Positions 40,792 to 61,243 of a DNA stretch of 64,000 nucleotides are shown piece after piece. A model generated the notes under the pieces. The model worked only from the letters and a program-made list of their open reading frames with translations, made no database searches and was not told the origin of the DNA. How positions within the stretch are numbered: the first letter of the stretch is position 1; every line of letters starts with the position of its first letter. A program made the translations under genes and the position numbers. This DNA comes from Amaricoccus solimangrovi (GTDB lineage Bacteria; Pseudomonadota; Alphaproteobacteria; Rhodobacterales; Rhodobacteraceae), in contig NZ_VFRP01000001.1 in the NCBI RefSeq assembly GCF_006385685.1, positions 434,001 to 498,000 on the forward strand, read 5' to 3'.

Positions 40792-41829
40792 ATGGAAGGC
40801 TTTTTCTCGAGCGGCTTCGGCCTGTTTCTCCTGATCCTCGGGCAGTGCCTTCTGGTGACGGTCGTCATTCTCGTCTGCCTGGCGTTCCTGATGTACGCCG
40901 ACCGCAAGGTCTGGGCGGCGGTGCAGCTGCGCCGGGGGCCGAACGTCGTCGGTCCCTGGGGGCTGATGCAGAGCTTCGCCGACTTCCTCAAGTACATCGT
41001 CAAGGAAGTGGTGGTCCCGGCGGGCGCCGACAAGATCCTGTTCTTCCTCGCGCCGATGGTGAGCTTCGTGCTGCCGGTGATCGTCTGGGCGGTGATCCCC
41101 TGGGCGCCGGGCTGGGTGATCTCGGACATGAACGTGGGCATCCTGTTCATCTTCGCGATCTCGTCCCTGCACGTCTATGCGATCATCATCGGCGGCTGGG
41201 CCTCGAACTCGAAATACCCGTTCATGGGCGCGCTCAGGTCGGCGGCGCAGATGATCTCCTACGAGGTTTCGCTCGGTCTCATCATCGTGGGCGTGCTGAT
41301 CTCGACCGGCTCGCTCAACCTCAGCCACATCGTGCTGGCGCAGGAGGGCGGTCTCGGGCTCCTGAACTGGTACTGGCTGCCGCATCTGCCGATGGTCGCG
41401 CTCTTCTTCATCTCCTCGCTGGCGGAGACGAACCGGCCGCCCTTCGACCTTCCGGAGGCTGAATCGGAGCTCGTCGCGGGCTATCAGGTCGAGTATTCCT
41501 CGACCCCCTTCCTGCTCTTCATGATCGGCGAGCTGATGAGCGTCTTCTTCATGTGCGCGCTCATCTCGATCCTGTTCTTCGGAGGCTGGCTGTCGCCGGT
41601 GCCGTTCCTGCCGGACGGGGCGCTGTGGCTCTTCCTGAAGATGGTGTTCTTCTTCTTCATCTTCGCGATGGTGAAGGCGATCGTGCCGCGCTACCGCTAT
41701 GACCAGCTGATGCGGATCGGCTGGAAGGTGTTCCTGCCGCTCAGCCTGGGCTGGGTGGTGCTGGTCGGGCTCTTCGCCCACTACGGATGGTTCTGGGGCG
41801 CCTACCAGCGCTGGATGATTGGGGGCTGA
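40792..41829 (+). CDS. nuoH: NADH:quinone oxidoreductase subunit H
   Basis: A 345-residue membrane subunit (ND1 type) with about eight helices that joins the quinone site to the proton channels. Family landmarks include [23 protein letters not shown] near residue 37, [24 protein letters not shown] near residue 207 (the acidic loop of the E-channel), and the [14 protein letters not shown] end. It follows nuoG by 3 bp and nuoI starts 4 bp later. Confidence 0.97.
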
Positions 41830-41833
41830 GGCG

Positions 41834-42325
41834 ATGGGGATCCCGTTCGACCGCGCCGCGCGCTATTTCCTGCTCGCCGACTTTCTCGGCGGCTTCAAGC
41901 TCGGCCTGAAGTACTTCATGAAGCCGAAGGCGACGCTCAACTACCCGCACGAGAAGGGGCCGCTCTCGCCCCGCTTCCGCGGCGAGCACGCGCTGCGCCG
42001 CTACGCCAACGGCGAGGAACGCTGCATCGCCTGCAAGCTCTGCGAGGCGATCTGCCCGGCGCAGGCGATCACGATCGACGCCGAGCCGCGCGAGGACGGC
42101 TCGCGCCGGACGACGCGCTACGACATCGACATGACGAAATGCATCTACTGCGGCTTCTGCCAGGAGGCCTGCCCGGTCGATGCGATCGTCGAGGGGCCGA
42201 ATTTCGAGTTCTCGACCGAGACGCGCGAGGAGCTGCTCTACAACAAGGAGCGGCTGCTTGCGAACGGCGACCGCTGGGAGCCGGAGATCGCGCGCAACCT
42301 CGAACTCGACGCGCCTTACCGGTGA
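41834..42325 (+). CDS. nuoI: NADH:quinone oxidoreductase subunit I
   Basis: A 163-residue subunit (TYKY type) with two [4Fe-4S] clusters, N6a and N6b, on the path to N2. The ligand motifs [16 protein letters not shown] and [16 protein letters not shown] are complete. The start [12 protein letters not shown] is preferred to an in-frame ATG 15 bases upstream that overlaps nuoH. The length equals other alphaproteobacterial NuoI proteins. Confidence 0.97.
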
Positions 42326-58130: not shown

Positions 58131-58763
<633 letters not shown>

Positions 58764-58805: not shown

Positions 58806-59321
58806 TCAGCGGATCGGCGCGCCGACCACCTCGATGCCATGGCGCGCGCAGGCGCGGCCGAGCGCGAAAACCTGCTCGGGCGTGGGCGCGACATGGGGCG
58901 GCAGGCCCGGGCCGCTGGCCGGGCGGGAGAGTTCGCGCACCAGCCCTTCGAAATCGGTCCCGGAGGTGATCGTCAGGCAATGCGCGCCGCCGGGGCTCAG
59001 CACCGCGTAGGTATGCGCGACGCCCTTCGGCCCGAGCAGGCACTGGCCCGCCTCGATCACGCGGTCCTCGCCGCCGACCCGGAACCACATCCGGCCCTCG
59101 ACGAGGTAGAAGAATTCCTCCTCGTCGCGGTGGATGTGCAGCGGCGGCCCCTCGCCATAGGGCAGCCAGTGCTCCATCACGCAGATGTCGTCGCCGGCGA
59201 GGCGGGAGGCCTGGATCTCGACCCGGCCATTGCCGAAGAAGAGCGCGGCCTCCCCGGCGCCGGCGGGCGCCGCGGCCGGCCGGGCCGGCTCCAGCGCGGC
59301 GGGGGAAAGGGGCAGGTTCAT
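58806..59321 (-). CDS. Cupin-domain protein
   Basis: A 171-residue single-domain cupin. The first motif is PPLHIHRDEEEFFYLVEGRMW (His, His and Glu metal ligands plus the conserved Gly), with the second motif at GPKGVAHTYAVLSP. After the barrel, a C-terminal helical section LVRELSRPASGPGLPPHVAP follows, as in quercetin-dioxygenase-like or sensor cupins. The start MNLPLSPAALE is chosen at the ATG complementary to 59319-59321. It is divergent from the PPOX genes; four TTCYTAA-type heptamers lie in the gap between. The ligand is unknown. Confidence 0.85.
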   Translation of the reverse strand: MNLPLSPAALEPARPAAAPAGAGEAALFFGNGRVEIQASRLAGDDICVMEHWLPYGEGPPLHIHRDEEEFFYLVEGRMWFRVGGEDRVIEAGQCLLGPKGVAHTYAVLSPGGAHCLTITSGTDFEGLVRELSRPASGPGLPPHVAPTPEQVFALGRACARHGIEVVGAPIR

Positions 59322-59379
59322 CGTTTCGCTCCGTGCTTTGTTGACTGACGGATCAATACCCGAAGCGGGCGCGGAGCGG

Positions 59380-59429
59380 TTCTTAATTGCTTCCTAAGCC
59401 ATGTTCGCGCATTCCTAAAAGTCTCTTAA
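59380..59429. promoter_or_regulatory. Heptamer direct repeats, OmpR/PhoB-type operator candidate
   Basis: Four copies of a TTCYTAA-type heptamer: TTCTTAA (59380), TTCCTAA (59391), TTCCTAA (59412) and CTCTTAA (59423). The start-to-start distances are 11, 21 and 11 bp, so all sites lie on the same face of the helix. This is the spacing bound by OmpR/PhoB-type winged-helix dimers. The region separates the cupin/YceI genes (minus) from a PPOX gene pair (plus), the second of which encodes a protein with such a winged helix. Confidence 0.65.
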
Positions 59430-59459
59430 GATTCTCTCCTTTCTCCGGGGACCTGCCGC

Positions 59460-59921
59460 TTGCGCGTGACCGAGGAACTCGCGGCCTTCGTATCGGGGCC
59501 GGTGCTGATGACGATCGGAACGCGGGACGCGGCCAACCGGCCGATGATCGCGCGCGGGACCGGCGGACGGGCCTGGGACGACCGGGGCGGGATCAGCCTC
59601 GCGATCTCCGGCTGGCTCTGGCCCGAGACGGTGGCGAATCTGCGCGCGAACGGGATGATCTCGGCCACCTTCGTGCGGCCCGACACCTACGAGGCCTTCC
59701 AGCTCAAGGGCCGTGCCCGGCTGCGCGACCCCGAGCCATCCGAGCGCGAGGCGGGCGGGCGCTACGTGCGCGAGGCGGCGGCGATGCTGAACCGGCTCGA
59801 GATCCCGCTCGCGCTCATCGCCTGCTGGCTGACCGACCGCGATCTGGTGATCGCCGATTTCACCGTCGACCGCGTGTTCGAGCAGACGCCGGGTCCCCGG
59901 GCGGGGCGGGTGGTGGCGTGA
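59460..59921 (+). CDS. Pyridoxamine 5'-phosphate oxidase-like (PPOX fold) protein
   Basis: A 153-residue split-barrel protein of the flavin-binding PPOX superfamily: GPVLMTIGTRDAANRPMIARG is the usual first strand pair, followed by ISLAISGWLWPETVANLRANG and VRPDTYEAFQLKGRARLRDP. A TTG start at 59460 is taken because GGGGA lies eight bases upstream; a GTG at 59466 is the alternative. Its stop overlaps the GTG start of the next gene (GTGA), and the two share the PPOX fold, so they may work as partners. Whether the ligand is FMN, F420 or heme cannot be told. Confidence 0.75.
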   Translation: MRVTEELAAFVSGPVLMTIGTRDAANRPMIARGTGGRAWDDRGGISLAISGWLWPETVANLRANGMISATFVRPDTYEAFQLKGRARLRDPEPSEREAGGRYVREAAAMLNRLEIPLALIACWLTDRDLVIADFTVDRVFEQTPGPRAGRVVA

Positions 59922-61243
59922 GCCTGGTTCCGCCGCTGGCCGAACTCGAGGATTGCTTCGAGGGCGTGGTGCCGTCGATCATCGCCACCTCCTCGGCCGA
60001 CGGCGTGCCCAACATCTCCTACCTCAGCCACGTCGATCTGGTCGATGACCGCCATGTCGCGCTCTCGAACCAGTTCTTCGGCAAGACGGTCGACAATCTG
60101 CGCGCCAATCCGAGCGCCTGCCTGATGCTCGTCGACGGGGCGACCGGGCAGCAGTACCGGCTCGACGTGACCTGGCTGCGGAACGAGCGCGAAGGGCCGC
60201 TCTTTCGCGACATGGCGGCGAGCCTCCGGGCGAGCAGCGCGCAGATCGGCATGGCGGGCGTGATGCGGCTCGACAGCGTCGATCTCTTCCGGGTCGAGGC
60301 GGTGCGCGCGCTGCCGGTGCCCGATCCGCCGCCGGCCCCGGCGCGGCGGCGCGACTGGGCGGGGATCGCGGCGGAGATCGGGCAGGATCTCGCGCGCGAG
60401 ACCGAGGTCGCGGGGCTGACGGCGGCGCTGCTCGACGGGCTGACGGGGAAGCTCGGCTGTCCGGCCGCGATCCTCTTCCAGTACGATCCGGCGGGCGAGC
60501 GGCTGGTGACGGTGGCGAGCCGGGGCTATCCGAGTTCCGGCGCCGGGTCGGAGGTTCCGCTCGGCGAAGGCATCGCGGGCGGGGCGGCGGCCGGGCGCTG
60601 CGTCGTGAAGGTGAGCGACATGAGCCGCGTCGCACGCTTCGGCGCCGCGATCCGTGCCAGTTCGTCGGAGGACATCCGCGAGATCCCGCTGCCGCGCCTG
60701 CCGGACGCCAACAGCCAGATCGCGGTGCCGCTGATCGCGCGGGGCGACCTCATCGGCGTCATCTTCGCCGAGAGCCCGCGCCGCCTCGCCTTCGGCCGCC
60801 GCGCGGCGGCGGCGCTGACGCTCCTCGCCGGGCAGATGGCGGCCGCCTCGCAGCTTGCCGAGCGCATGGCGGAGGAGGCGCCGGCGCCGGCGGAGGCGCT
60901 GCCCGCGCCGGGCGCGGGCCCCGCCTTCCGCGTCGCCCATCACCGCTACGACGACAGCGTCTTCATCGACAACGCCTATGTGATCAAGGGCGTGGCGGGC
61001 CGGCTGCTCGTCTATCTGCTGCGCCGCCATCTCGAGGAGGGGCGGGTCGAGTTCACCAACCGCGAGATCCGCCTCGCCCCCGACCTCCGGCTTCCCGATT
61101 TCCGCGACAATCTCGAGACCCGCCTGCTGCTCCTGCGCCAGCGGCTCGAGGAGCGGGGATGCCCCGCGCGGCTCACCCGGCCTGGCCGGGGGCGGATCCG
61201 GCTCGACCTCGCCGGCCTGCCGGTGATCGAGACGCACGCCTGA
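59918..61243 (+). CDS. PPOX-GAF-winged-helix protein, probable one-component regulator
   Basis: A 441-residue three-domain protein started by GTG overlapping the preceding stop. Residues 1-132 are a PPOX-type split barrel (PSIIATSSADGVPNISYLSH, then HVALSNQFFGKTVDNLRANP). Residues about 148-312 form a GAF domain (EIGQDLARETEVAGLTAALL through PLIARGDLIGVIFAE). After a Pro/Ala linker, residues about 335-436 resemble an OmpR/PhoB-type DNA-binding domain: YVIKGVAGRLLVYLLRRH, then ETRLLLLRQRLEERG in the recognition-helix position and PGRGRIRLDL for the hairpin wing. The idea that a flavin or other small molecule controls DNA binding is inference. An operator candidate lies just upstream of its operon. 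Confidence 0.75.
   Translation: MSLVPPLAELEDCFEGVVPSIIATSSADGVPNISYLSHVDLVDDRHVALSNQFFGKTVDNLRANPSACLMLVDGATGQQYRLDVTWLRNEREGPLFRDMAASLRASSAQIGMAGVMRLDSVDLFRVEAVRALPVPDPPPAPARRRDWAGIAAEIGQDLARETEVAGLTAALLDGLTGKLGCPAAILFQYDPAGERLVTVASRGYPSSGAGSEVPLGEGIAGGAAAGRCVVKVSDMSRVARFGAAIRASSSEDIREIPLPRLPDANSQIAVPLIARGDLIGVIFAESPRRLAFGRRAAAALTLLAGQMAAASQLAERMAEEAPAPAEALPAPGAGPAFRVAHHRYDDSVFIDNAYVIKGVAGRLLVYLLRRHLEEGRVEFTNREIRLAPDLRLPDFRDNLETRLLLLRQRLEERGCPARLTRPGRGRIRLDLAGLPVIETHA

Follow-up and report, generated by a model that had tools for sequence, protein, structure and literature searches.

A predicted PPOX–GAF–winged-helix regulator of Pseudomonadota and the conserved repeat box of its divergent promoter

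The locus, its regulator and the regulator's relatives

The window, by which we mean the whole 64,000-nucleotide stretch of the Amaricoccus solimangrovi genome analysed here, contains a pair of overlapping genes, P2 and P1, and two further genes, for a cupin and a YceI-family protein, which diverge from the pair on the opposite strand and are both recognised by Pfam, as the initial annotation had described them (Table 1). P1 is, as had also been proposed from the sequence, a single open frame of 441 residues with a PPOX and a GAF domain, each of which exceeds its Pfam cut-off (PNPOx_N, 45.5 bits against 28.1; GAF_2, 45.2 bits against 28.6). NCBIfam models applied to the whole protein returned two PPOX matches, both far below cut-off. 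A chance frame is unlikely, given that 19 relatives align along its length at 38-56% identity, one of them (L014) truncated near its end by a contig edge, and the GAF_2 match recurs in all 20 aligned members of the family. PPOX domain, GAF domain and winged helix stand in one chain, with neither a receiver nor a kinase in the Pfam matches or the predicted fold, which is the plan of a one-component regulator.

Table 1. Genes, protein domains and promoter features of the locus, in positions of the window
Feature	Position	Strand	Basis
YceI-family gene, presumably the second in the target unit	58131..58763	-	Pfam YceI, E 1.1e-28; 42 bp behind the cupin gene
Cupin gene, presumed target	58806..59321	-	Pfam Cupin_2, E 5.9e-14
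-10-like TATTGA, toward the cupin gene	59353..59358	-	21 bp from the proximal repeat; locus comparison
Operator-like pair 1, TTCTTAA-N4-TTCCTAA, 11-bp spacing	59380..59397	+	Sequence comparison
Operator-like pair 2, TTCCTAA-N4-CTCTTAA, 11-bp spacing	59412..59429	+	First repeat starts 21 bp from the start of the last repeat of pair 1
P2, small partner PPOX protein, 153 aa	59460..59921	+	Stop overlaps P1 start; homologues beside P1
P1, PPOX-GAF-winged-helix regulator, 441 aa, GTG start	59918..61243	+	Open frame, Pfam, relatives
PPOX split-barrel domain, P1 residues 9-129	59942..60304	+	Pfam PNPOx_N, E 1.1e-11
GAF domain, P1 residues 163-310	60404..60847	+	Pfam GAF_2, E 1.4e-11
Winged-helix domain (predicted), P1 residues 335-441	60920..61240	+	AlphaFold2, Foldseek PDB
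Predicted recognition helix, P1 residues 396-412	61103..61153	+	DSSP on model

The overlap of the two forward-strand genes was likewise borne out, the TGA stop of the 153-residue P2 lying within the GTGA at 59918-59921. P2 itself scores 28.0 bits against PNPOx_N, marginally below the cut-off of 28.1. A homologue of P2 adjoins P1 in 30 of 31 distinct loci, being missing in L041, and in 19 of the 21 loci of a second set that overlaps the first, where it is missing in L063 and in L069, the latter with a broken P1. ATGA or GTGA stands at the start codon of P1 in 22 of 25 loci, of which at most 21 have a true overlap, because the P2 stop comes earlier in L011. Across 17 P2 sequences, Q81, K83 and residues of a QTPGxxAG stretch are invariant.

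The C-terminal tail had been assigned to the OmpR/PhoB type of winged helix, and of this assignment the fold stood while the sequence family did not. A structure prediction of full-length P1, run as the initial annotation had suggested, reached a pLDDT of 85.7 (AlphaFold2, 20-row alignment); the tail modelled alone reached 93.2, with a pTM of 0.87, its elements following in the order three strands, helix, strand, short helix, long helix and hairpin. When this tail model was compared with the PDB by Foldseek, BaeR, SaeR, DNA-bound AdeR and VanR came out on top, with PhoB at rank 23, and OmpR-family DNA-binding domains were the best matches over the first nine rows, with probabilities of 0.94-1.00 and query TM scores of 0.49-0.61. 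Even the best E-values are only 0.01-0.1 (the lowest is 0.012, and 0.001 is not reached), and unrelated winged helices, among them ESCRT-II Vps25 and ScpB, are interspersed among the OmpR-type matches. The profile search against Trans_reg_C (PF00486), which had been the proposed check, gave no match in any of 20 P1 members at E-values up to 10, and the last 107 residues of P1 matched nothing in Pfam or NCBIfam. P1 is not among the 13 Trans_reg_C matches of its own genome, and hhalign of the tail with 12 of those 13 OmpR-type domains returned a probability of 1.5%, over a short stretch that puts recognition helix onto recognition helix.

The tail of P1, then, has the predicted fold of an OmpR-type winged helix without belonging to that family by sequence. 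With BaeR, SaeR, AdeR, VanR and PhoB it shares a predicted topology of N-terminal strands, recognition helix and C-terminal hairpin, but where the OmpR-type winged helix usually stands behind an N-terminal phosphoreceiver, P1 has PPOX and GAF domains instead, and no profile match. Two other ways of classing the tail were set aside: chance resemblance is disfavoured by predicted fold and conservation, and filing P1 as a member of Trans_reg_C found no support in the Pfam, own-genome and hhalign comparisons.

The P1 family is scattered in Pseudomonadota, since a profile of the tail detected it in only 12 out of 385 genomes at the level of the class and in 9 out of 398 at that of the phylum, the window's own counted. 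Relatives occur at 13 loci of named genomes, in Pelagerythrobacter, Dyella, Caballeronia, Microvirga (two), Rhizobium (two), Paracoccus, Asticcacaulis (three), Zavarzinia and Chthonobacter, genera which we take to be alpha-, beta- and gammaproteobacteria. The genome of the window itself holds a second near-full-length copy at 41% identity (C53, L002) and, on contig C82, the broken remains of a third (L054, about 41639-42187). An end-to-end alignment of 20 sequences gave a mean column identity of 57% for the whole of P1 and 63% for the tail, and the PPOX domain reached 62% over 19 sequences. In all 20, the predicted recognition helix keeps N398, L399, R402, L403, L405, L406, L410 and E412, and the PPOX domain keeps P31, N32, K56, T57 and N60. 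The PPOX–GAF–tail plan was found in all relatives whose frames were read, except in L041, the same genome place as L063, where a short form (G484:C4, 2772-3614 of L063) has a partial GAF domain and the tail, without the PPOX domain and P2.

The repeat box and the geometry of the divergent promoter

The divergent promoter of the P1 family carries direct repeats of TTSCTAA at 11-bp spacing, usually as two pairs. The window's repeats are TTCTTAA at 59380, TTCCTAA at 59391, TTCCTAA at 59412 and CTCTTAA at 59423, with start-to-start distances of 11, 21 and 11, and they coincide with 59380-59429, the stretch that had earlier been suggested for DNA binding. By a simple rule, all four repeats with spacings of 11, 20-22 and 11 are found in 9 of 16 stretches, two or three being found in the rest; the first spacing in the three Asticcacaulis loci is 9. 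Counted as YTAA pairs at a spacing of 11, there are 21 in 14 intergenic stretches (2151 bp), against a single one on that strand and none on the other in the surrounding 198,144 bp (the rest of the window and 13 loci); dinucleotide shuffles of the 14 stretches gave a mean of 0.18 pairs and a maximum of 3 in 500. The sole surrounding pair, L012:4216, is perhaps a real second site. In Paracoccus limosus and a relative, a second repeat pair is found downstream of the regulator gene, at a distance of about 700 bp (L012:4213 and L070:5218); in L070 the gene that follows this pair is OsmC-like and adjoins one for a cytochrome c.

Over the 36 loci read, a YTAA pair was present near the regulator or target in 30; an 11-bp pair was not found in L061, L062, L064, L066, L069 and L092, with variant repeats in L066 and L092. 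L061, L062 and L064 belong to one genus and have both regulator and P2, the pair being absent from the 6 kb read, and L061 has a Rieske-domain gene upstream. In L063, four CTAA repeats at 11-bp spacing lie directly 3' of the P1 relative, between two gene ends and with no target gene visible.

The evidence for the box is its conserved place and not its rarity, because pattern counts are not below those of a reversed control. With two mismatches allowed, the pattern has 8 sites in the window's own genome against 14 for the control; the exact pattern TNSCTAAN4TNSCTAA, which misses the window's own sites, has 11 in 27 genomes against 13. Exact sites occur in 9 of the 27 genomes, namely in 8 of 17 regulator carriers and in 1 of 10 non-carriers (G157). 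A wide regulon was not borne out: seven of the 11 sites are at the regulator's own locus (G484, G187, G405:C4, G180, G189 and two in G411) and four elsewhere (G408:C2, G310:C25, G157 and G405:C1). Regulation would thus be mainly local, since most exact-pattern sites in carrier genomes lie where the regulator does. A pair with one mismatch on contig C83 of the window's genome (L053:1859-1876), without a -10-like TA at 20-21 bp, may be chance; the start of the gene downstream presumably resembles that of a formyltetrahydrofolate deformylase.

In the direction of the target gene, the box reads TTAGSAA-N4-TTAGSAA, and the TA of a -10-like hexamer follows 20 or 21 bp on. Of 18 aligned loci, 16 have this distance at 20 or 21, whereas in 5000 shuffles of the downstream bases no two adjacent distances together accounted for more than 9. 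The 18 come from 26 compared loci, less L013, L015 and L017, which have an extra repeat 9 bp nearer the gene, and L052, L065, L066, L067 and L068. It is comparison between loci that marks the hexamer as -10-like, because a scan of 59300-59500 for a consensus sigma-70 promoter found none. A scan for TTAGSAA with one mismatch, N20-21 and TA was made over 36 loci and 352,316 bp (the window, L006-L018, L052, L055-L070 and L088-L092, with the near-copies L059/L060 and L015/L017 kept, and with L019, the same genome place as L070, and L020, nearly identical, left out). It gave 31 matches, 27 of them at the target promoters of 27 different loci and four elsewhere (L006:8321, L012:4188, L069:4109 and L090:5367), the arrangement being missing in nine loci (L012, L061, L062, L063, L064, L065, L068, L069 and L070). 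The five loci L088-L092, fetched once the rule was seen, have the repeat-plus-TA arrangement in 5 of 5 and an exact YTAA pair in 4 of 5, the mismatch rule of the scan having been written after they had been viewed. The partner repeat is not always exactly 11 bp upstream: the distance is 22 and 33 in L091 and L092 and 33 in L066 and L067, and in L016, L052 and L090 the partner is more degenerate or is found only farther away.

Direct repeats about 11 bp apart at target promoters point to an OmpR/PhoB-like mode of binding, PhoB boxes being direct repeats at 11 bp as well; at pstS, however, the PhoB box is nearer to the -10 element than the 20-21 bp that separate the P1 repeat from its -10-like element. 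If the hexamer is a -10 element, an N20 box would span about -50 to -33 with its centre at -41.5, and that of the window (N21) would lie one base further. A centre near -41.5 is the position of a class II activator, and it is because box and -10-like element sit as in class II activation that P1 most likely turns on the divergent gene. That P1 might instead repress from these repeats, blocking the divergent promoter and its own until a ligand releases it, we consider unlikely. Divergent regulator–enzyme pairs are often under repressor control, and many loci have the second pair near the start codon of the P2-P1 unit, where it would fit autorepression too; yet a repressor site would require neither a fixed distance nor a fixed orientation, and an activator's geometry is seen in the almost invariable 20-21 bp between repeat and -10-like TA, in the constant orientation to the target and in the centre near -41.5.

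Target genes behind the box

What lies behind the box varies from locus to locus. The genes of the window had been taken together as a small stress-like module, a description that holds for the P2-P1 pair and the box, which are conserved, but not for the cupin and YceI genes, which were seen there in this genome only, the gene in relatives being mostly that of a flavin monooxygenase or of a hemerythrin-like protein. An FMO-like flavin monooxygenase is divergent in 9 of the 13 named loci (one BLAST cluster, with Pfam run on L007 only) and also in L070 and L088; in L016, a YceI gene stands behind the FMO gene. A hemerythrin-like gene is divergent in the three Asticcacaulis loci and Zavarzinia (a BLAST cluster) and in L055, L089, L090 and L092. 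When Pfam was run on the hemerythrin-like proteins of L013, L014, L055, L089, L090 and L092, only those of L089 and L090 were over the cut-off, the other four matches being slightly to clearly below it. The targets of L056-L060 are called hemerythrin-like by the likeness of their first residues, as is that of L065, by its first residues alone and with no Pfam match. The hemerythrin-like proteins of L055, L065 (4585-5253), L089, L090 and L092 share a common opening, Y-D/N-x-Y-x-x-IHK, and perhaps form their own subfamily. In L091, the box precedes the gene of a small protein that matches DUF2871 below cut-off.

In a second subfamily of the regulator, the box is found on the 3' side of the regulator gene, before an FAD_binding_4 gene (L052, L066 and L067) or a sulfotransferase gene (L068), so that the box is kept despite a changed target and, in L052, L066 and L067, despite the 3' position. 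In a tree of 34 rows (L063, L069 and L092 left out), the window's regulator falls inside the FMO clade with support of 100/98, and because it belongs to this clade, the cupin–YceI unit is read as an exchanged target behind a kept box. These changes of target and side also bear on whether the repeats might serve another regulator altogether, P1 and P2 being an enzyme pair and the P1 tail a winged helix for protein contacts. Many PPOX proteins are enzymes or carriers, the contact between P1 and DNA is read from sequence, and three loci with the regulator (L061, L062 and L064) are without the pair. Against this, P1 is the only predicted DNA-binding protein seen to be common to the loci, and the box follows P1 through changes of target and side and is present at L063, where P2 and the PPOX domain are missing; we regard a second regulator as very improbable.

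Mode of action and candidate signals

The operator-like repeats, by their conservation, support the earlier reading of P1 as a transcription factor. From sequence and model together, we consider it probable that P1 is a one-component, local activator of transcription that binds the 11-bp TTSCTAA repeats through its OmpR-type winged helix and takes its signal through the PPOX and GAF domains with P2. The PPOX and GAF domains would receive a small-molecule or flavin/redox signal jointly with the translationally coupled P2, with which P1 may form a shared PPOX complex. Head-to-tail pairs of P1 would then sit on the repeats of the divergent promoter, a site marked by its conservation, and would most likely turn on the divergent gene, here cupin–YceI, and probably tune the P2-P1 unit itself.

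Sensor domains joined to a winged helix are known, and it is the combination of PPOX, GAF and tail with the box and the partner that seems undescribed; text searches of the literature turned up no paper apparently devoted to the PPOX–GAF–winged-helix architecture, as judged from listings whose coverage excludes most of the subscription literature. The P1 family is likely a new kind of single-protein gene switch, because its members mostly adjoin the same DNA repeats before a gene of oxygen or flavin chemistry. For an apparently undescribed regulator family of Pseudomonadota, this gives the domain architecture, partner and precise DNA site, together with a predicted promoter geometry and named candidate target genes in oxygen and flavin chemistry, and the proposal, if true, would place an OmpR-type winged helix under metabolite- or flavin-type sensor domains. 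More speculatively, and with considerable doubt on our part, the two proteins could act as one sensor, in which a flavin-loaded P1-P2 complex reads flavin/oxygen chemistry, binds the OmpR-type box of four 11-bp repeats without phosphorylation and activates whichever gene for an enzyme that uses oxygen or flavin stands behind it. The regulator would then travel with its partner and the box as a cassette with an exchanged target slot, filled by flavin monooxygenase, hemerythrin-like protein, FAD oxidase, sulfotransferase or cupin–YceI.

That P1 is under ligand or redox control, as was first suggested for it, we infer from its domains, which offer several candidate signals. Compared with the PDB, the PPOX profile of P1 matches FMN-binding 3in6 best, followed by HutZ and HupZ, and a KT-x-x-NL stretch is common to P1 and 3in6; HupZ is also the closest solved relative of P2. 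The 20 aligned P1 sequences have no invariant Cys or His, so that heme or thiol sensing through fixed ligands was rejected and heme, iron-sulfur and thiol switches with such ligands are disfavoured. On these grounds, the missing invariant Cys/His and the stretch shared with 3in6, heme is by sequence a slightly less likely signal than one of FMN type or another small ligand. A signal of heme, O2 or NO, perceived through a heme-bound PPOX domain like that of HutZ or HupZ, would suit the kinship of both proteins with these structures and the hemerythrin-like nature of some targets, but P1 lacks the fixed His or Cys, reaches 17.2 of the 225 bits of the HutZ equivalog cut-off and has its top PDB match in an FMN-binding protein whose KT-x-x-NL it shares; we think such a signal improbable. 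A small organic compound bound in the GAF domain, with the PPOX domains serving dimerisation only, is a possibility to be taken seriously, if at less than even weight. GAF domains commonly bind small ligands and L063 retains a partial GAF domain and tail without PPOX domain and P2, whereas the five invariant PPOX residues speak for a kept pocket and P2 is kept as well.

Three kinds of known protein set the proposed activator in context. The PPOX/FMN-binding split-barrel proteins 3in6, HutZ, HupZ and Rv1155 share the PNPOx_N domain with P1, whose PPOX domain is, unlike theirs, fused to a GAF domain and a winged helix and without an invariant His. PaiB-type regulators also tie a flavin-type split barrel to gene control, but are not known to have a fused GAF domain or winged helix. 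NifA (9qq6) and Nlh were among the matches in the comparison with P1, and NifA/NorR-type regulators likewise place a GAF sensor in a transcription factor; they use an AAA+ domain and sigma-54, whereas P1 shows neither of these by Pfam, has no invariant Cys, and has its GAF domain in one chain with the predicted winged helix.
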